A program made the translations under genes and the position numbers. Positions 14,004 to 64,000 of a stretch of DNA of 64,000 nt are shown piece by piece. The stretch comes from Flavobacterium sp. I-STPP5a (GTDB lineage: Bacteria > Bacteroidota > Bacteroidia > Flavobacteriales > Flavobacteriaceae), in the NCBI RefSeq assembly GCF_009764685.1, contig NZ_VHLM01000004.1, positions 1 through 64,000 on the forward strand, given 5' to 3'. Below the pieces are notes generated by a model that did not search any database, had not been told where the DNA came from, and saw nothing but the letters and a program-made list of their open reading frames with translations. Positions within the stretch are counted from its first letter, which is position 1, and each line of letters starts with the position of its first letter.

Positions 14004-14039
14004 CAACTTCTTAAAATTAAAATTATTACTTTACATATT

Positions 14040-15302
14040 ATGGTAAAAGATTTATTCGAAAGAATTCAAAACAATAAAGGTCCTTTAGGGAAATGGGCTT
14101 CACAAGCTGAAGGGTATTTTGTTTTTCCAAAATTAGAAGGTGAGTTGGGACCAAGAATGCAGTTTGGAGGTAAAAATATTTTGAATTGGAGTTTGAATGA
14201 CTATTTAGGTCTAGCCAATCATCCTGAAGTTCGTCAGGCTGATACAGATGCCGCTGCACAGTATGGAGCAGCATATCCTATGGGAGCTAGAATGATGAGT
14301 GGTCACACTAAATATCATGAGCAGTTAGAGAATGAGTTAGCCTCTTTTGTTATGAAAGAATCAGCTTACTTGTTGAATTTTGGATACCAAGGAATTATGT
14401 CCACTATTGATGCATTAGTAACGCGTAATGACATAATTGTATATGACGTAGATGCACATGCATGTATTATAGATGGAGTACGTTTGCACAGTGGAAAAAG
14501 ATATACTTACAAGCACAATGATCTTGAAAGTATGGAGAAAAACCTGCAACGTGCTACAAAAATGGCTACTGAAACAGGTGGTGGGATTTTGTTTATTACC
14601 GAAGGTGTTTTTGGTATGCGAGGACAACAAGGTAAATTGAAAGAAATTGTTGCTTTAAAAGAAAAGTACAATTTCCGTTTGCTAGTTGATGATGCACACG
14701 GTTTTGGAACCTTAGGTAAAACAGGAGCTGGAGCAGGTGAGGAGCAAGGTTGTCAAGATGGTATTGATGTATACTTCTCTACATTTGCAAAATCTATGGC
14801 TAATATTGGTGCTTTTGTGGCAGCTGATAAAGACGTTATTGATTATTTAAAATACAATTTACGTTCTCAAATGTTTGCCAAAGCATTGCCAATGATTCAA
14901 ACTATTGGTTCTTTAAAAAGATTGGAATTGTTGCGTAACAACCCAGGATTGAAAGATAAACTTTGGGAAAACGTAAACGCATTACAAAACGGATTAAAAG
15001 AGAGAAACTTTAACATTGGTGATACTAATACTTGTGTTACTCCAGTTTATCTTGAAGGAAGTGTGCCAGAAGCAATGGTGATGGTAAATGACCTAAGAGA
15101 AAATTATGGTATCTTTTTAAGTATTGTAATCTATCCTGTAATTCCAAAAGGAATTATTTTATTGCGTATGATACCTACAACTACACATACTATTGATGAT
15201 GTTAATGAAACATTGACAGCATTTGAAGCTATTCGTGAAAAACTAGAAAATGGTACTTATAAAGAGATTGCAAGTAGAACTACTGTTGATTTAGACGCTT
15301 AA
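14040..15302 (+). CDS. Serine palmitoyltransferase-like PLP-dependent alpha-oxoamine synthase
   Basis: 420 residues, fold-type I aminotransferase of the AONS/KBL/SPT family. The start MVKDLFERIQ is favoured over the upstream TTG. Visible are LNWSLNDYLGLANHPEV, GARMMSGHTKYHEQLE, the cofactor-stacking His region DVDAHACIIDGVRLH, the Asp clamp LLVDDAHGFGTLG, and the Schiff-base lysine in TFAKSMANIGAF (about residue 245). Bacteroidota members of this type condense serine with a fatty acyl-CoA or acyl-ACP to 3-ketosphinganine, the first step of sphingolipid synthesis. 8-amino-7-oxononanoate synthase (BioF) and glycine C-acetyltransferase are alternatives. No biotin or threonine genes are nearby, and a GNAT acyltransferase candidate for the next step lies just past the IS, which favours SPT. 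It ended in an intrinsic terminator now split by the IS. Confidence 0.83.
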   Translation: MVKDLFERIQNNKGPLGKWASQAEGYFVFPKLEGELGPRMQFGGKNILNWSLNDYLGLANHPEVRQADTDAAAQYGAAYPMGARMMSGHTKYHEQLENELASFVMKESAYLLNFGYQGIMSTIDALVTRNDIIVYDVDAHACIIDGVRLHSGKRYTYKHNDLESMEKNLQRATKMATETGGGILFITEGVFGMRGQQGKLKEIVALKEKYNFRLLVDDAHGFGTLGKTGAGAGEEQGCQDGIDVYFSTFAKSMANIGAFVAADKDVIDYLKYNLRSQMFAKALPMIQTIGSLKRLELLRNNPGLKDKLWENVNALQNGLKERNFNIGDTNTCVTPVYLEGSVPEAMVMVNDLRENYGIFLSIVIYPVIPKGIILLRMIPTTTHTIDDVNETLTAFEAIREKLENGTYKEIASRTTVDLDA

Positions 15303-15321
15303 AATCTTATTCTAAAATTAT

Positions 15322-15337
15322 AAAAACCATCTGTTAC
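15322..15337 (+). terminator. Left arm of spt terminator, separated by IS insertion
   Basis: AAAAACCATCTGTT (15322-15335) is the exact complement of AACAGATGGTTTTT at 16790-16803. Bases 15335-15337 (TAC) are the left copy of the target duplication. Confidence 0.85.
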
Positions 15338-15371
15338 TAGACTGCACCCAAAAGTTTAGACAAATTTATAA

Positions 15372-16205
15372 TTAATTTTGATAATAATGAGCCCGATATT
15401 GTGTCGGGCTCATTCCCTTTAAATTCAGTTTTATTCTTTCATTATTGTAATATTTGATATACTCTTTAATTTCGTTTTTCAAATGATTGATGTCTTTGAA
15501 TTTCATAATATAAAACAGTTCTGATTTTAATATTCCAAAGAAGTTTTCAATAATTGCATTATCTAAACAGTTCCCTTTTCGAGACATACTTTGTATTAAT
15601 CCTTTTTCTTTCAAAAGCATTTGATATTGTTTCATTTGATACTGCCAGCCTTGGTCTGAGTGCAATATTAGATTAGAATTATTAGGTATACATTTAAAAG
15701 ACTTTTTAAGCATATTGCTTATTTGATTAAAATTGGGTCTTTCCGATAATTCATAACTTATTATTTCTCCGTTAAATAAATCAATAATAGGCGAGAGATA
15801 CAATTTATTGCCTGAGACATTAAACTCCGTTATATCGGTTGCCCACTTTTGGTTGGGTGCTGTTGCCTTAAAATTTCGCTGTAATATATTAGGAGCTATC
15901 TTCCCTTGTTCTCCCTTATATGATTTATATTTTTTTAATCGTATTAAACTTTTTAATCCTAGAACCTTCATTAATCGCAATACCGTTTTGTGATTAATTA
16001 CAATTCCTTTTTGTTTGATTGCCAAAGTAATACGGCGATATCCCAATCGACCTTTATGGTAGTTGTAAATCTGCTTAATCAATTCTTTAATGTCTTTGTA
16101 TTTGTCGATTAATTGACTTCTTTTTTCATGGTAATAATAACTACTTCTAACCATTTTCATACAATTGAGAAGAACCTCTAAATCATATTTATGCCTTAAT
16201 TCCAT
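15372..16205 (-). CDS. IS3-family transposase OrfB (DDE integrase core)
   Basis: 277 residues. An N-terminal HTH_21-like segment (about 40-100; YNYHKGRLGYRRITLAI) precedes an rve integrase core with all three catalytic acids: D in KWATDITEFNV, D in LHSDQGWQYQ and E in NAIIENFFGILKSE, spaced as a DD(35)E triad. Its ATG overlaps the orfA stop as TAATG. The frame is also open upstream of this ATG back to the slippery heptamer at 16262-16268, so the functional transposase is most likely the OrfAB fusion made by -1 frameshifting. No internal stop or frameshift was seen. Confidence 0.95.
   Translation of the reverse strand: MELRHKYDLEVLLNCMKMVRSSYYYHEKRSQLIDKYKDIKELIKQIYNYHKGRLGYRRITLAIKQKGIVINHKTVLRLMKVLGLKSLIRLKKYKSYKGEQGKIAPNILQRNFKATAPNQKWATDITEFNVSGNKLYLSPIIDLFNGEIISYELSERPNFNQISNMLKKSFKCIPNNSNLILHSDQGWQYQMKQYQMLLKEKGLIQSMSRKGNCLDNAIIENFFGILKSELFYIMKFKDINHLKNEIKEYIKYYNNERIKLNLKGMSPTQYRAHYYQN
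15386..15414. repeat. 11-bp perfect hairpin inside the 3' end of IS orfB
   Basis: AATGAGCCCGA / TCGGGCTCATT with a 7-base loop, overlapping the last codons of orfB, about 50 bases inside the IS left end. There is no T-run on either strand. Confidence 0.7.
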
Positions 16206-55339: not shown

Positions 55340-55600
55340 TTAAAAACCCTCAAAAACGCCTAGGCCAAATAAGGCAAAATCATACTTTACAGGATCTTGT
55401 GCATCAAATTCGCGAAGTTTAGCGTCTAATTCTGCAAGAGCTTTTCCATCATTTTGTTTTCGAGAAAGCAACTCCAATTTTCTAGCCACATTACCGGAGT
55501 GTACATCTAGCGGGCAAGATAGGGAAGCCGTTGAGATGCTTTTCCAGATGCCCAGATCAACGCCAGTTTTGTCATTTCGAACCATCCACCTTAAATACAT
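55340..55600 (-). pseudogene. C-terminal fragment of a TIGR02757 (DUF2400) gene, cut by the mobile element
   Basis: 86 codons from the first Met, matching the end of TIGR02757 proteins: LRWMVRNDKTGVDLGIWKSI, CPLDVHSGNVARKLELLSRK, KYDFALFGLGVFEGF. Full-length members have about 250 residues, so roughly the first two thirds are missing. Just upstream of the Met the frame hits TAA after about five unrelated codons. The break coincides with the 3' end of a serine recombinase gene, so the rest of the gene probably lies at the other end of the inserted element, beyond 64000. Confidence 0.88.
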
Positions 55601-55625
55601 GTAGAAAAGGGTAATTTAGATGGTA

Positions 55626-57377
55626 TTAATCAAATAATACTAGTTCATTTGGATTTAGGTCAACACTTTCTCCAATCATACCCGAAACAGTAGTATTTCC
55701 TTCATAGCCAGTTAAGTCTTCTTCATTGAATGGTATGCCCTTGCGGTCGTAATTAGCTTTAAGCATTTCTACATCTTCTGCAAGTTGTTCCTTATTTAAT
55801 GCTTTCTCTCGATAATGTGTATGCCAATACCACTTCAAACCTTTCCAGTCTGTGGTAAATGTAGATTCCTCAGAATAATTTCTATATTTAATAACTATAA
55901 AGTAATATCCAGATTTGTTTTGCTTTGAATGATGTATTTTGATGCTCTCAATCAAAGAATGCACCAAACGTTTAATCTCATCAAATTGAATATAATCAGT
56001 ATAAGTTTCTATCAAAGTTTTGGTTCTTGAGATTCTGGTCTCATTTTCCATTTCTAAAACTTTTATTTGGAGGTCTTCAATTTCTAAATTTAATTTAACC
56101 CTTTTTAGTTTTGTTAATTTGTAGTCTTCTTTAAAAGTTTCATCATCCTCCAAGTCTGGGTCTCTTAATAATTTTACTAAGCGTTCAAGCTGTTTATCCA
56201 ACTGAACTAATTCTTTCTTCTTACTATCTAGCTTTTCTCTTAGTGGAATTGATAGATTACTCTTTGGAGCCTCGAGCAATAATTCTTTAAGATTCTTATT
56301 TTTAAATAAATGCTGAATAATAAAATTTTCTAATTTAGGGAGTGAAATAGCCCTACTATCTTGACAGTCTTTATGCGGTGGTCTCTTTCCTTTGCATTTA
56401 TAAGAGTTGTCATTTCCTTTAGGTCTTTTTTTTCCTAACACTTCATTACCGCAATGTCCACATTTTATAATTCCATTTAGTAAATAATGATAATCTGCTC
56501 TTTTACCGACATTTTTAATATTTTTGGGAAGGTTCTCATTTACCTTATCCCATAAATCATCCTCTATGATTTGAACATCAATTTTTACTTCAATTCTTTT
56601 GTTGATATCTTTCTTGTTCCAAATTCTGATACCTTTATAGATAGGGTTTGTCAGCATGTCATAAACCACATTTCCTCTCCATTTTACATTGCTTTTTTCA
56701 AATTCTGTAACATTCTTTGTGAATTCATTTATCCTTTTTATTTTTCCTTTAAATCTATTAAATTTTGTTGGTGCCCCTTCTTCGTTTAGGATATTGGCAA
56801 TCGTATAACTACCAATTCCTTGAAGTGATAAATTGAACATTTTTCGAATGTACTGAGCTTCTTCTTCAAAAATTATAAAATTATTATTTTCATCACGTTG
56901 ATAACCGTAAGGTTTCATTCCATGAGTTTTCCCTTTTAGTGTTTTACTGTAATTCGCTAATTTTACTTTTCTAGAGGTAATTTTAGCATAGTATGAATTG
57001 ACTAATGAAATTAAGTTACTACCTAAAATGCTTTCGTCATTACTAAAATCAAAATCAATTCCGTTTGGATAAAATTTACATTTATGCGCTATGCATTCAG
57101 CGGAAAAAATATTCCATACAGTGGAATTGCGTTCAATTCTAGACTGGTCTATGCAATAAATGTTGGTAATGACACCTTTTTTTAAATCGGACATCATATC
57201 CGCAAGTGCTGGTCTATCTTCAATAGCTAGAGTTCCGCTCATTCCTTCATCTACATAATATCTATATTGCAAACCTAAATGATTAGCCAATTTGAAACCA
57301 CCCTGTTGTTGGGTTTCGATAGAATAATCGGTTCCATCTGCCTTGTTTTTGGATGTACGACAATAAATAGCGAGCAT
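55626..57377 (-). CDS. Large serine recombinase (site-specific integrase)
   Basis: 583 residues. The N-terminal resolvase domain (about 1-140) carries the catalytic YCRTS (Ser about 9) and DEGMSGTLAIEDRPALADMM. The recombinase domain (about 165-270) has KPYGYQRDENNNFIIFEEEA. A zinc ribbon (about 300-340) has CGHCGNEVLGKKRPK with further Cys at KCKGKRPPHKDC. A coiled coil (about 365-440) is followed by a C-terminal region. This is the large-serine-recombinase layout that integrates phages and mobile elements between short att sites with a 2-bp core. Its 3' end adjoins the truncated host gene, the normal position at the element edge. Catalytic and zinc residues are intact, so it may be active. 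Confidence 0.93.
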   Translation of the reverse strand: MLAIYCRTSKNKADGTDYSIETQQQGGFKLANHLGLQYRYYVDEGMSGTLAIEDRPALADMMSDLKKGVITNIYCIDQSRIERNSTVWNIFSAECIAHKCKFYPNGIDFDFSNDESILGSNLISLVNSYYAKITSRKVKLANYSKTLKGKTHGMKPYGYQRDENNNFIIFEEEAQYIRKMFNLSLQGIGSYTIANILNEEGAPTKFNRFKGKIKRINEFTKNVTEFEKSNVKWRGNVVYDMLTNPIYKGIRIWNKKDINKRIEVKIDVQIIEDDLWDKVNENLPKNIKNVGKRADYHYLLNGIIKCGHCGNEVLGKKRPKGNDNSYKCKGKRPPHKDCQDSRAISLPKLENFIIQHLFKNKNLKELLLEAPKSNLSIPLREKLDSKKKELVQLDKQLERLVKLLRDPDLEDDETFKEDYKLTKLKRVKLNLEIEDLQIKVLEMENETRISRTKTLIETYTDYIQFDEIKRLVHSLIESIKIHHSKQNKSGYYFIVIKYRNYSEESTFTTDWKGLKWYWHTHYREKALNKEQLAEDVEMLKANYDRKGIPFNEEDLTGYEGNTTVSGMIGESVDLNPNELVLFD

Positions 57378-59165: not shown

Positions 59166-59444
59166 TTAGTTTATTCGAATCAAACTTCCCATCAATTCAC
59201 CTCGTTTATAATAGACCCTATTACCGATGCCAAAGGCAATTATTTTACCTTTTTTAGTCCAATTCCATAAGGTAGTCATATTGATTTTTAACAAAGTGCA
59301 AGCCTCAGCTCTGGTAAGTAATTCATCTGGATTTTCAGTAGGTATATTTTTTACAAATTCTTGTAATTGTTCTTTTACCACTCTTGTGATTAACTCTTCT
59401 AAATCCCTCGGAGTTAAATTTTGTAATAGGATTGCGTTTTCCAT
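59166..59444 (-). CDS. Excisionase-family helix-turn-helix protein
   Basis: 92 residues. An N-terminal helix (TPRDLEELITRVVKEQLQEF) is followed by an HTH_17/MerR-like DNA-binding domain (about 42-85; LLTRAEACTLLKINMTTLWN, KGKIIAFGIGNRVYYKRGEL). This is the small 'helix-turn-helix domain' protein commonly found near integrases in Bacteroidota elements, where it acts as excision factor or regulator. It is transcribed away from the RM operon. Likely DNA targets are the operators at 58615-58659 or the att region. Confidence 0.82.
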   Translation of the reverse strand: MENAILLQNLTPRDLEELITRVVKEQLQEFVKNIPTENPDELLTRAEACTLLKINMTTLWNWTKKGKIIAFGIGNRVYYKRGELMGSLIRIN

Positions 59445-59821: not shown

Positions 59822-62245
59822 ATGGCAATTAAAAAATCAGAATTATACAGCTCTCTTTGGGCTAGTTGTGATGAATTACGTGGAGGAATGGATGCCTCTC
59901 AATACAAAGATTATGTACTTACAATGCTTTTTGTGAAGTATGTTTCAGATAAGTATGCTGGCAACCCGATGAGTTTAATTGAGATACCCAAAGGAGCTTC
60001 ATTTGAAGACATGGTGGCCTTGAAAGGACAAACCGATATTGGTGACCGAATCAATAAAGAAATATTGAGACCTTTATTTGCGGCCAATGGACTTGAAGGT
60101 TCAATGGAACTAGTAGATTTCAACGATGATGACAAACTAGGAAGCGGAAAAGATAAAGTAGAAACGCTGTCTAAGCTTATTGCTATTTTTGAAAATCCTG
60201 GACTTAACTTTAAAAATAATAGAGCTGAAGATGATGATGTATTGGGTGATGCGTATGAATTTTTGATGCGTCACTTTGCTACAGAATCTGGAAAAAGCAA
60301 AGGACAATTTTACACACCAGCCGAGGTATCTAGAATCTTATCGAAGGTCATTGGTGTTGAGAAAGCAGACAAACCATCTTATACAGCTTACGACCCAACC
60401 TGTGGTTCGGGTTCGCTTTTATTGAAAGTGTCAGATGAATCACCAAATGGACTTACACTTTACGGTCAAGAAAAAGATATAGCCACAAAAGGATTAGCCA
60501 TCATGAACATGTGGTTGCATGGCTATCCCGAAGCATCTATTGCGGGTGGAAACACCATATCAATACCTAGTTTTAAAGAAAATGATGGAAGTTTAAAGCG
60601 ATTCGATTTTGTAGTTGCCAATCCTCCTTTTTCTGTTAAGAATTGGTTGACTGGAATCAACCCAATGGATGATGCCTTCAAGCGTTTTAGAGGGTATGGA
60701 GTGCCACCAGAGAAAAATGGCGATTATGCCTTTTTACTACACATTTTAGCTTCATTAAAAAGCACGGGAAAAGGAGCAGTTATTCTTCCTCATGGTGTTT
60801 TGTTTAGAGGAAATGCCGAAGCCGAAATTCGTAAAAACATCTTGGAACGCAAATGGATAAAAGGAATTATTGGGTTGCCAGCCAACTTGTTCTACGGTAC
60901 AGGTATTCCCGCTTGTATTATTGTGATTGACAAAGAAAATGCTGAAGAGCGTGAAGGCGTTTTTATGATGGACGCCAGCAAAGGATTTACTAAAGATGGT
61001 AACAAGAACCGATTAAGAGAACAGGACATTCACAAAATTGTAGATGCCTTCAACCGCCAGTGGGAAATTGACAAATACTGTCGTTTAGTACCGTATAGCG
61101 AGATTGAAAAAAACGAATACAACTTAAACATTCCTCGTTATATTGACACTCAAGAGGATGAAGACATTCAAGATTTGAATGCACACTTAAATGGTGGAAT
61201 TCCTCAAAAGGACATTGACGCCTTGAAGAAATACTGGGAGATATACCCTAATCTAAGAAAAGATTTGTTTACCCCTATTCGTGAAGGGTACGCCAAATTG
61301 AATGTGGAAAAAAACACCATCAAAAGCACCATTTTTGAGCATGACGATTTTACAAAATACAATACCAAGCTAGACAGTTTGTTTACGGAATACAAAGCAA
61401 CCAATCATGCCCGAATGAATGCTATTGGCGCCGATACCAAGCCCAAAGATTTCATTAAAACCATTGCCGAAGACTTACTAGAGCGATATGCAAATAAACC
61501 TCTAATTGGCCAATATGATGTGTACCAACATTTGCTAGACTACTGGAACGAAACCATGAAAGATGATGTCTATCTATTGGTTGAAGACGGTTGGAAAGCT
61601 ACTGTAAAACGTATTATTGAAAAAAACAAAAAAACAGGCAAAGAAACCGATAAGGGCTGGACTTGCGACCTTATCCCTAAAACATTAGTCATTAACCGAT
61701 TTTTAGCCACTGAACAACAAGCCGTTTGGGATGTTGAAACCGCTTTAGAAAGCCTACAAGCCGAAATAATAACTATTGAAGAAGAACATGCTGGCGAAGA
61801 AGGCCTATTGAGTGAAGCTACCAACGATAAAGGTAGTTTGACTAAAGCTACCATAACCGCATTTGTAAAAGACAACAAGACCAACCCAACAGAAAAAGAA
61901 GCGGTGGCACTGGCCAATAGCTTATTGAAACTATTTAACCGTGATACGGAACTTAAAAAAGAACTAAAAGAGAAAACCACCACTTTAGATGATTTGACCC
62001 TTGCTAAGTTCAAAGCCTTAACCGAAGCTGAAGTAAGAACACTAGTAGTCGATGATAAATGGCTTACCAGCTTACAAACCGTGATACAAACCGAAATTGA
62101 TGCTATCTCACAACGGTTAACCACTAGAGTAAAAGAATTATCAGACCGCTACGAAAATTCTTTAGGAGAATTGGATTGTGAAACAAAATCTTTAGAGGAT
62201 AAAGTTAATATTCATCTTGAAAAAATGGGATTAAGATGGAATTAA
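59822..62245 (+). CDS. hsdM: Type I restriction-modification methyltransferase subunit HsdM (long form)
   Basis: 807 residues. HsdM_N (about 5-140) opens SELYSSLWASCDELRGGMDA and holds YVLTMLFVKYVSDKY. The N6-adenine methyltransferase domain has the AdoMet motif DPTCGSGSLLLK (about 190) and catalytic FVVANPPFSV (about 268). The C-terminal third (about 480-807) is a helical, Glu/Lys-rich extension with coiled-coil potential (ELKKELKEKTTTLDDL), longer than the E. coli-type HsdM of about 530 residues but seen in long-form HsdM proteins of Bacteroidota. It methylates adenine at the target site as M2S. It overlaps hsdS by 10 bases (ATG within its end), so the two are translationally coupled. Confidence 0.96.
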   Translation: MAIKKSELYSSLWASCDELRGGMDASQYKDYVLTMLFVKYVSDKYAGNPMSLIEIPKGASFEDMVALKGQTDIGDRINKEILRPLFAANGLEGSMELVDFNDDDKLGSGKDKVETLSKLIAIFENPGLNFKNNRAEDDDVLGDAYEFLMRHFATESGKSKGQFYTPAEVSRILSKVIGVEKADKPSYTAYDPTCGSGSLLLKVSDESPNGLTLYGQEKDIATKGLAIMNMWLHGYPEASIAGGNTISIPSFKENDGSLKRFDFVVANPPFSVKNWLTGINPMDDAFKRFRGYGVPPEKNGDYAFLLHILASLKSTGKGAVILPHGVLFRGNAEAEIRKNILERKWIKGIIGLPANLFYGTGIPACIIVIDKENAEEREGVFMMDASKGFTKDGNKNRLREQDIHKIVDAFNRQWEIDKYCRLVPYSEIEKNEYNLNIPRYIDTQEDEDIQDLNAHLNGGIPQKDIDALKKYWEIYPNLRKDLFTPIREGYAKLNVEKNTIKSTIFEHDDFTKYNTKLDSLFTEYKATNHARMNAIGADTKPKDFIKTIAEDLLERYANKPLIGQYDVYQHLLDYWNETMKDDVYLLVEDGWKATVKRIIEKNKKTGKETDKGWTCDLIPKTLVINRFLATEQQAVWDVETALESLQAEIITIEEEHAGEEGLLSEATNDKGSLTKATITAFVKDNKTNPTEKEAVALANSLLKLFNRDTELKKELKEKTTTLDDLTLAKFKALTEAEVRTLVVDDKWLTSLQTVIQTEIDAISQRLTTRVKELSDRYENSLGELDCETKSLEDKVNIHLEKMGLRWN

Positions 62246-63462
62246 CACAACAGAAGTACAAAGAAACGGAAGCTGGATTAATTCCAGAAGATTGGACTCT
62301 GGAAAAGATTGAAGATTTTGCTTCAATTACTACTGGAGGAAGTGATACCCAAGACCGTGTTAAAGATGGAGAATATCCTTTTTATGTAAGGTCAAACACA
62401 ATTGAAAGAATCAACAAATATTCTTTTGATGGCGAGGCAATATTAACCTCTGGTGATGGTGTAGGTGTTGGTAAAATATTTCATTATGTTACTGGTAAGT
62501 TTGACTATCATCAAAGAGTTTATAACTTATTCAACTATAGACAAGATGTATACGGTAAGTACCTCTTCTTTCAGTTTTCGACTAACTTTTATAAAAAGGT
62601 TATGTCAATGACTGCTAAATCATCCGTTGATTCTGTTAGAAGAGAAATGATAGCCGACATGAAAATCCCGCTCCCACCAACCCTAGAAGAACAAAAAGCC
62701 ATAGCCGCCGCCTTGAGTGATGTAGATGAATTGATTAGTAATTTAAACCAACTCATCACCAAAAAGAAAGCGATTAAACAAGGTGCCATGCAACAGCTTT
62801 TAACGCCACCGAACAAAGGTGGTAAACGGTTGGCAGGGTTTACTGAGGATTGGGATTTTAGAACCATTGGTGAGCTCTGTAAAACATTTACTAAGCAAAC
62901 AGGGTTCGACTATTCAAATCACATAAAACCAACACTAATTAATAAAAAACAAACGGATTATCTACCGTTTATCCAAAACAAAGATTTTAATGGTCATAAA
63001 GTAAACTTTGATACTGATTACTATATTCCTCAAGATGTAGCTGTACGCTTCCCAATGATTTTATTGAATGAAAGATGTTTGATGATTTCCATTTCAGGCA
63101 GTATAGGAAAAGTTGGAATTTTTAACAATAAAGAAATTGCTTTTATTGGTGGAGCGGTATCAGTAGGAAAGTTTATCAACCCACTCTATTTGGATTGGGT
63201 CATGAATTATCTACATTCAGAAGCTGGACAAAACATGATGTTGAAGGACGTTAAGGCAGGGTCGCATCAAAACCTAATTCTCGATGACATTAGAAAAATG
63301 AAAATTCCCATGCCAAAAATTGAAGAACAAAATGCTGTGTGTCAAATTCTATCAGATATAAATGAAGATATAGATAAATTAGAAACAAAAAAAGCAAAAT
63401 ACCAAGTTATAAAACAAGGCATGATGCAAGAATTATTAACGGGTAAAATTAGGTTGGTGTGA
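62236..63462 (+). CDS. hsdS: Type I restriction-modification specificity subunit HsdS
   Basis: 408 residues with two target-recognition domains (about 1-150 and 210-360), each followed by a conserved coiled-coil spacer: PPTLEEQKAIAAALSDVDEL with KAIKQGAMQQLLTPP, and MPKIEEQNAVCQILSDINED with KQGMMQELLTGKIRLV. The repeated EEQ...L-D and IKQG-MQ-LLT blocks are the HsdS hallmark. The two recognition domains differ, so a bipartite asymmetric target is expected. It starts inside the last codons of hsdM and its stop overlaps the GTG of the DUF262 gene. Intact, no premature stop. Confidence 0.95.
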   Translation: MELTQQKYKETEAGLIPEDWTLEKIEDFASITTGGSDTQDRVKDGEYPFYVRSNTIERINKYSFDGEAILTSGDGVGVGKIFHYVTGKFDYHQRVYNLFNYRQDVYGKYLFFQFSTNFYKKVMSMTAKSSVDSVRREMIADMKIPLPPTLEEQKAIAAALSDVDELISNLNQLITKKKAIKQGAMQQLLTPPNKGGKRLAGFTEDWDFRTIGELCKTFTKQTGFDYSNHIKPTLINKKQTDYLPFIQNKDFNGHKVNFDTDYYIPQDVAVRFPMILLNERCLMISISGSIGKVGIFNNKEIAFIGGAVSVGKFINPLYLDWVMNYLHSEAGQNMMLKDVKAGSHQNLILDDIRKMKIPMPKIEEQNAVCQILSDINEDIDKLETKKAKYQVIKQGMMQELLTGKIRLV

Positions 63463-64000
63463 GTGAAGTAATAGAAGTTCAAATGGATATTGCGGAGCAT
63501 AAAGTTTCGCCAAAGGATTTAAAACCCAGTATCATTACGGTTGCTGATTTGCTCGTAGAGTCTAGGATAACATTTCCTAATTATCAAAGGCCCTACAAGT
63601 GGGAAACTAAGCATGTAAACCAGCTTATCAATGATATTATTACTTTCAATCACAAACCAGCCTATCGCCTCGGTACAGTTGTTATTCATCATGATGAAAA
63701 CGACCTATTAAATATTGTTGATGGGCAGCAACGCACCATTACTTTATTACTTATTACAAAAGCAATTTTAGCAAGGATTGATGCCAAACAAATAGAATTA
63801 AAAAATGAGGAACTAAAAAGGCTACTTAAGGACGTAAAGTCTAAAATGCCACAACCTCAATTTATTAATGAAATCACCATACAAAACATTCAAAGAAATT
63901 ATGCTGAAATTGAACGTCATGTAGCTAATTTTGATGAAGAAATACTGTTTTTTCTTTTCAACAAATGTGAATTTGTTAAATGTATTCTAACCGATATTTC
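63459..64000 (+). CDS. DUF262 (GmrS-like) domain protein, 3' end outside window
   Basis: The frame opens with GTG at 63459, overlapping the hsdS stop (GTGTGA). An alternative ATG lies at 63483. The 180 visible residues contain FPNYQRPYKWETKHVNQLIN, YRLGTVVIHHDENDLLNIVDG with the following QQRTITLLLI, matching the DUF262 block (YQRPY-W and DGQQR-T). DUF262 is the nucleotide-hydrolysing half of GmrSD type IV restriction systems and a frequent component of defence loci. Tight coupling to hsdMS suggests it works with or guards the type I system. Whether a DUF1524/GmrD part or hsdR follows cannot be seen. Confidence 0.88.
   Translation, partial: MSEVIEVQMDIAEHKVSPKDLKPSIITVADLLVESRITFPNYQRPYKWETKHVNQLINDIITFNHKPAYRLGTVVIHHDENDLLNIVDGQQRTITLLLITKAILARIDAKQIELKNEELKRLLKDVKSKMPQPQFINEITIQNIQRNYAEIERHVANFDEEILFFLFNKCEFVKCILTDI

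Follow-up and report, generated by a model that had tools for sequence, protein, structure and literature searches.

A probable TgvAB-type gene pair as exchangeable cargo at the hsdS-hsdR junction of a type I restriction-modification operon

What is the role of a gene for a GmrS-type (DUF262) protein found within a type I restriction-modification (RM) operon? The question is raised by the far end of the window, a stretch of 64,000 nucleotides from Flavobacterium sp. I-STPP5a, which corresponds to bases 1-64000 of a contig of 165,200 bases (NZ_VHLM01000004.1, same numbering), in a genome of 3.67 Mb and 86 contigs. An earlier note on this DNA had described a type I RM operon on a mobile element, in which hsdM, hsdS and a DUF262 gene overlap by a few bases, and had proposed for the DUF262 protein a role in monitoring or extending the type I complex. 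The overlaps and the element are confirmed below; the proposed role finds no support. The gene, here called A, has a partner of its own, B, endowed with a nuclease domain, and the favored reading, to which a probability of about 0.8 may be assigned, is a type I RM operon hosting a separate, two-protein type IV module of the TgvAB type in its hsdS-hsdR junction, with joint expression and not a joint complex.

The operon has the order hsdM-hsdS-A-B-hsdR-ygjP, and all six genes overlap head to tail. On the + strand, hsdM (59822-62245) encodes a type I methyltransferase of 807 aa (Pfam N6_Mtase, 1.4e-100; HsdM_N, 2.6e-12; 1219.8 bits with the PADLOC model MTase_I PDLC03027) and overlaps by 10 nt with hsdS (62236-63462, +), which encodes the type I specificity subunit, of 408 aa (Methylase_S, 1.3e-28). 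A 4 nt overlap, GTGA, joins hsdS to A (63459-64910, +, 483 aa), which starts with GTG and is truncated in the window by the edge at 64000. The DUF1524 domain and the hsdR gene, to be looked for beyond that edge according to the earlier note, are both found: DUF1524 lies in B (contig 64897-66855, +, 652 aa), while hsdR extends from an ATG at contig position 66848 to 69874, with HSDR_N, SWI2_SNF2 and T1R_D3-like Pfam domains. The last overlapping gene, ygjP (contig 69864-70592), encodes a YgjP-like metallopeptidase, as recognised by Pfam. The three type I genes are all present and intact, with hsdM and hsdR above the cut-offs of TIGR00497 and TIGR00348, respectively. The same six-gene order is found again in E. 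coli, where A, B, HsdM, HsdR and YgjP feature protein identities of 42-60%, and HsdS of 31%: the operon is therefore not the product of chance reading frames.

Both A and B are of the GmrSD type, when evaluated by Pfam cut-offs. A contains GmrSD_N/DUF262 (6.4e-30) and DUF7834 (PF25202, 3.1e-72), without DUF1524; B contains GmrSD_N (3.1e-31) and GmrSD_C/DUF1524 (2.3e-14). The motifs YQRPY (42-46), DGQQR (88-92) and FFxxQN (186-191) of A are invariant in 13 out of 13 aligned A proteins; similarly, YQR (29-31), DGQQR (81-85) and F196/N200 of B, together with its nuclease residues E562, H563, N587 and N596, are invariant in 12 out of 12 aligned B proteins. In a wider set of 35 pairs, DGQQR is present in all A proteins (35/35, pattern D[GS]QQR) and in all B proteins (35/35).

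This arrangement is that of TgvAB, described in 2024 by Vizzarro and colleagues (PMC11411939; all statements on cited papers refer to those portions of their text that were available). In V. cholerae VPI-2, the cluster hsdM-hsdS-tgvA-tgvB-hsdR combines a type I system with an embedded, modification-dependent type IV pair, composed of TgvA, with DUF262, and TgvB, with DUF262 and DUF1524, both of which are required. TgvAB targets phages carrying sugar-modified hydroxymethylcytosine and protects without a working HsdR nuclease, a catalytic mutant of HsdR having made no difference; 79 five-gene clusters and 1,341 tgvAB operons were reported in 41,142 genomes. The operon described here shares with it the gene order, with A first; the domain split, DUF262 without DUF1524 in A and both domains in B; and the motifs QR, DGQQR and FxxxN in both proteins, along with the His-Me H..N..N in B, where H563 and N596 are 33 residues apart, versus 31 for H571-N602 of published TgvB. 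It differs by the extra overlapping ygjP gene, by the serine-recombinase element and by the host, probably of a phylum other than that of V. cholerae. DUF7834, present in A, is not mentioned in the available portions of PMC11411939, and no mention of it was found in a literature search. A and B probably constitute a TgvAB-type pair, and the label of a less-described system, used in the earlier note, is outdated by the 2024 publication.

The limits of the cargo are sharp. The closest relative found, L088, has an empty slot: its HsdM, HsdR and YgjP are 85%, 78% and 86% identical to those of the operon, and its hsdS and hsdR overlap by 4 nt (ATGA). Nucleotide homology between the two loci extends to the final base of the hsdS stop codon and sets in again with the A of the hsdR ATG. 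An A-B operon from E. coli (L086) and a Citrobacter IncC plasmid with other cargo (L118) share 92% identity beginning with the start codon of hsdR, while on the hsdS side their homology (95%) ends 16 nt before the end of L086 hsdS; in the comparison of L086 with a Vibrio cidicii plasmid (L119, 94%), the breakpoint falls again at the hsdR start. L086 and L122 are less closely related, and their BLAST match begins 141 nt into hsdR, so that this comparison does not show an exact edge. From these breakpoints, an exchange of cargo between conserved arms is probable.

The content of the slot was surveyed, as the earlier note had suggested, by using HsdR as a seed (E 1e-180) rather than A, in order to avoid loci chosen by the presence of A. 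The search found 7 out of 279 genomes of the genus and 27 out of 257 of the phylum, corresponding to 33 distinct loci, all of which were fetched; counts refer to the 22 with hsdS upstream of hsdR, the 11 without hsdS in the fetched stretch being left out. A-B occupies the slot in 4 of the 22 (L006, L020, L021, L092); in 3 more (L100, and L089 and L104 with a pair each) it holds other DUF262 genes. The pairs of L089 (6321-10584, 601 and 821 aa) and L104 (5158-9535, 611 and 851 aa) are GrwAB-shaped. Ten slots contain other cargo: Fic (L091), PD-(D/E)XK/NucS-like (L095, L111), DUF4268 and GIY-YIG (L094), KilA-N (L098), SLFN/AlbA and a 5'-nucleotidase (L102), AAA (L103, L110), OLD-like AAA (L101) and a gene without family assignment (L096). 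Five are empty (L088, L093, L097, L109, L112), that is, devoid of same-strand open reading frames (ORFs) of at least 80 aa. The presence of DUF262 between hsdS and hsdR thus holds for the first two groups and not for the others, which comes close to the random association with type I loci that the earlier note had named as contrary evidence. Among plasmid relatives, hand-picked from 37 records and outside all counts, the slot hosts DarTG in E. coli (L122), TrlF with an RNA-binding gene (L118), SLATT (L128) or A-B with Fic (L129), and is empty in L125 and L126. Far steadier than any slot cargo is ygjP, located at most 600 bp after hsdR in 30 of the 33 HsdR loci; of the other three, L090 is cut off by the end of its contig, L112 carries ygjP behind the second part of a split hsdR, and L099 is without ygjP. 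A protease linked to HsdR could, speculatively, adjust restriction; a literature search on YgjP and restriction turned up nothing related.

The genomic homes of A-B were traced by PF25202 in overlapping genome samples, with matches above the cut-off in 5 out of 296 genomes for the phylum, 4 out of 61 for the genus, 9 out of 395 for the class and 11 out of 397 for the family. They correspond to 24 distinct genomes: 23 contain A, while one (G595) has a single DUF262 gene only. A-B is located between hsd genes in 11 of the 23 (L006, L019, L020, L021, L026, L066, L071, L072, L076, L077, L079); in L077 the flanking genes are hsdR and hsdM, in L066 they are hsdM and hsdR, without a recognised hsdS, and in L019, L020 and L026 further genes stand beside it in the slot. 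It adjoins a same-strand type I operon in two (L073, L078), and is found in or beside other defence genes in five. One of these is a Gabija-type cluster (L024, 209-9252), with the order PDC-M62A - x - A - B - GajA - UvrD helicase on one strand, x being a gene without assignment, and with overlaps in 4 of the 5 neighbour pairs; in the others A-B is beside a DdmD-like gene (L070), or follows a KAP NTPase, PifA-like (L075), HsdR-like and UvrD genes (L074), or a type ISP gene (L025). No defence neighbours were recognised in five (L022, L064, L065, L067, L068), where neighbours were scanned for domains in part. An Aliarcobacter plasmid (L031, 5663-14332) features PD-(D/E)XK - A - B - UvrD helicase, with overlaps, and no type I genes were recognised in the fetched stretch with A-B at, for example, L064, L065, L082, L083 and L085. 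As a separate observation, the operon of L078, in which A-B follows hsdS, has a single DUF262 gene (14038-15678) between hsdR and hsdM.

A and B travel as one unit. B directly follows A in 37 out of 38 distinct A loci, the remaining one (L041) stopping at a contig edge; two of the 37 are broken copies (L032, L070). The 38 loci omit near-identical copies of L033/L035 (L034, L036, L040, L086, L087), and counts of A omit G1062 and weak DUF7834 matches without an A gene (L023, L027, L069, L080, L081). The correlation between the pairwise identities of A and those of B has an r of 0.96 for 35 loci, and of 0.97 for the 17 loci where HsdM and HsdR are also available, namely those with A-B inside or adjoining hsd genes. 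Over the same 17 loci, the correlation of distances is 0.97 for HsdM-HsdR, and 0.42 for A-HsdR, 0.42 for B-HsdR and 0.45 for A-HsdM (permutation p 0.0015 to 0.002; 0.0015 for A-HsdR). Single comparisons illustrate both directions: L019 and L026 have HsdR proteins 78% identical and A proteins 24% identical, while in L078 and L092 A is 52% and HsdR 17% identical. A-B appears to be inherited largely, though not wholly, independently of HsdM and HsdR, and these sequence comparisons give clear evidence for A-B as an exchangeable part. Besides the existence of B, what speaks against a monitoring or extending role is that A-B is optional (4 slots out of 22) and absent from L088, is also found among defence genes unrelated to RM, is largely inherited on its own, and has a published counterpart of the same layout whose protection does not need an active HsdR nuclease (PMC11411939).

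What this analysis shows directly are the genes with their domains, motifs and order, the limits of the slot, the exchangeability of the cargo and the mobile element; homology and the published work on TgvAB suggest, in turn, that both proteins would be needed, that their action would depend on modification, and that B would do the cutting. In the mechanism proposed, the type I part would methylate host DNA and cut unmethylated DNA, while A and B would jointly detect phage base modifications able to blind the type I enzyme; by analogy, both DUF262 domains would bind and hydrolyse nucleotide during sensing, and cutting of the modified DNA would fall to the His-Me (DUF1524) nuclease domain of B. 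Coupling to hsdS and hsdR would then provide shared expression, not a shared complex, and the presence of A-B and type I genes in one operon a complementary cover.

A number of results weigh against this reading. The correlation of A with HsdR, being still positive, indicates some joint inheritance, so that independence is not full. In the published system, tgvAB alone was 10- to 100-fold weaker than the whole cluster against several phages (PMC11411939): its authors account for this by stoichiometry, yet the deficit leaves room for help by HsdM/HsdS. The probable kinship with TgvAB rests on architecture and motifs; a scan of genome contigs gave one locus only, from Fibrobacteraceae, and no V. 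cholerae record. The EHxxP-type nuclease motif is present in 33 of the 35 B proteins; the exceptions, L064 and L067, retain a weak GmrSD_C match (1e-4 and 1.4e-7, respectively). Finally, structure models of A and B relatives are poor past DUF262, with mean pLDDT of 62 and 55, and no confident fold is obtained for DUF7834 in the model of the A relative L040; the only PDB matches of that model with E<0.001 are the DndI chains 9jfl_B and 9jfl_A (TM-scores 0.24-0.33).

Other known systems resemble the locus in part. HEC-06 is the best PADLOC model for A (4e-28), the best stretch covering only the start of DUF262 (A 25-120), but it is described as acting singly (PMC11411939); for B, the best model is Orf5 (3.2e-38), followed by HEC-06 (3e-35). 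BrxU, Eco94GmrSD, SspE and DndI have the GmrSD-family architecture of B, but are single-protein sensor-nucleases (PMC11411939; DndI via the PDB/paper listing). GrwAB (PMC12137116) is also composed of two DUF262 proteins, one with DUF1524, both required; there, however, the nuclease gene comes first and the partner has extra C-terminal domains, while here the order is reversed and A is 483 aa long. The identification of the window pair as GrwAB was rejected on gene order. RloF, in type I loci of C. jejuni (via PMC4619093 and PMC11411939), is encoded by a DUF262 gene between hsdS and hsdR, as here, but is reported as a single gene; it is set beside A-B by description only. The RptR-regulated type I/DarTG2 island of E. 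coli (PMC12255303, 2025), with the order hsdM-hsdS-DarTG2-hsdR-M48 metallopeptidase, has in common with the operon the scaffold hsdM-hsdS-cargo-hsdR-metallopeptidase, with DarTG2 in place of A-B. Since its authors already name the hsdS-hsdR site a potential recombination hotspot, that idea is not new: both the TgvAB system and the hotspot are published, and the window operon adds another TgvAB-type case. Not encountered in the available portions of these accounts are the start-codon-exact exchange of cargo and the homes of A-B outside RM loci.

Some of these relatives bear on the target. A-B may possibly be a type IV module which senses something other than modified cytosine, such as backbone phosphorothioate or another base modification of the phages of the host group; apart from the target, such a module is compatible with the favored explanation. 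Among PDB entries, DndI (9jfl) is matched by the sequences of both A and B, and SspE by that of B; both are phosphorothioate sensors. GmrSD-family pairs vary in range, GrwAB acting also on 7-deazaguanine phages (PMC12137116). The sequence matches to DndI and SspE, however, span the N-terminal DUF262 part only, and the closest architecture, TgvAB, acts on phages with sugar-modified hydroxymethylcytosine; this alternative target is accordingly considered the less likely one.

As for the function of the coupling, A-B might be a guard, sitting on or watching the type I complex and firing upon its inhibition, as PrrC does in EcoprrI. PrrC is indeed a known guard inside a type I locus (PMC12707154), the overlaps with hsdS and hsdR are tight, the published cluster protected better as a whole, and the correlation between A and HsdR is weak but real. 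Against a guard, strict linkage to type I genes is not observed (for example L064, L065, L082, L083, L085), A-B is also found inside or next to defence genes of other kinds (L024, L031, L070, L075), lineages are mismatched in the two pairs of loci reported above, and inactivation of the HsdR catalytic site had no effect in the published system. A guard, or a type I subunit, was rejected as the leading explanation on linkage and distances; it is improbable, and retains some weight because the published pair was weaker alone and only HsdR was inactivated there.

A different view of the same deficit, also improbable, is that A-B is a general plug-in sensor-nuclease, which would reach full activity only via the DNA-engaging machinery of the recipient operon: this might be HsdM/HsdS here, and Gabija-, PD-(D/E)XK/UvrD- or DdmD-type machinery elsewhere. 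Embedding up to the start codon would then be functional, beyond promoter sharing; such a role is allowed by the published loss outside the cluster, for which the HsdR nuclease was excluded as the cause (PMC11411939). That A-B is a selfish or decaying passenger, without a defence role, is very unlikely: broken copies (L032, L070) and two B proteins without the EHxxP-type motif do exist, but the reading frames are unbroken and the motif residues preserved, both here and in the 13 A and 12 B proteins, from several phyla, and A relatives are present in 890 out of 72,556 plasmid records.

The locus shows that a probable type IV module of two proteins and a type I scaffold are parts which, for the most part, are inherited apart and meet at one precise slot, both in the phylum of the window and in enterobacteria. 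If it is true that A-B hits DNA-modifying phages, one operon would cover both unmodified and hypermodified ones. With a relative whose slot is empty and with loci that swap cargo, coupling can be tested directly against independence.

Of the 890 plasmid records, 854 are from Klebsiella and 756 are predicted to be conjugative; ten were read (L031-L036, L082-L085). In two of the three Klebsiella plasmids read, A-B is located downstream of the SprT/YgjP gene closing the hsd operon, just outside it; in the third (L085, a 32% relative), no hsd genes are in view. The A gene of L033 is present in 15 out of 5,426 E. coli genomes, at 12 chromosomal places and 8 on plasmids. Four such records were read: L033, L086 and L087 contain the six-gene operon, while in L034 hsdR is shortened; both chromosomal copies read adjoin tyrosine recombinases. 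No A relatives were found in 50,697 phage records; viral contigs gave 24 matches, of which L040-L044 were examined and 19 weaker ones left out.

In the window, the operon is carried on a serine-recombinase element, about 30.9 kb long, whose insertion has split a DUF2400 gene. The large serine recombinase (55626-57377, - strand, 583 aa; Resolvase 4.4e-14, Recombinase 6.2e-16, Zn_ribbon_recom 7.7e-9) lies next to the left junction, marked by the 3' part of the split gene (55340-55602, -; Pfam DUF2400 positions 145-224). The 5' part is at contig 86541-87137 (positions 1-148), and a complete DUF2400 gene (contig 85683-86486, positions 1-224 of 225) is present on the far end of the element. Flanks joined at the common 8-mer ACATGTAT give one open DUF2400 frame, with junctions at 55602/86541. 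A 22-bp repeat (55440/85783) was rejected as the ends of the element, as it belongs to the homology that the split DUF2400 gene shares with the complete one.

Upstream of the operon, a divergent gene (59166-59444, -, 92 aa) encodes an HTH_17 protein (Pfam, 5e-11). Regulation by RptR, as in the DarTG2 island, was considered for the operon and rejected: the 523 bp that precede hsdM contain no TAGCTA; two RptR-like proteins used as tblastn queries gave no match there at E 10; and the only ORFs of at least 25 aa found there are an antisense one of 74 aa and one of 27 aa on the + strand. Downstream, after a gap behind ygjP, a DUF2130 gene is recognised by Pfam (contig 70708-71970); in L068 (5737-10492), where A-B has no hsd genes in view, a DUF2130 gene comes after the pair and shares 75% identity with the one behind the window operon.

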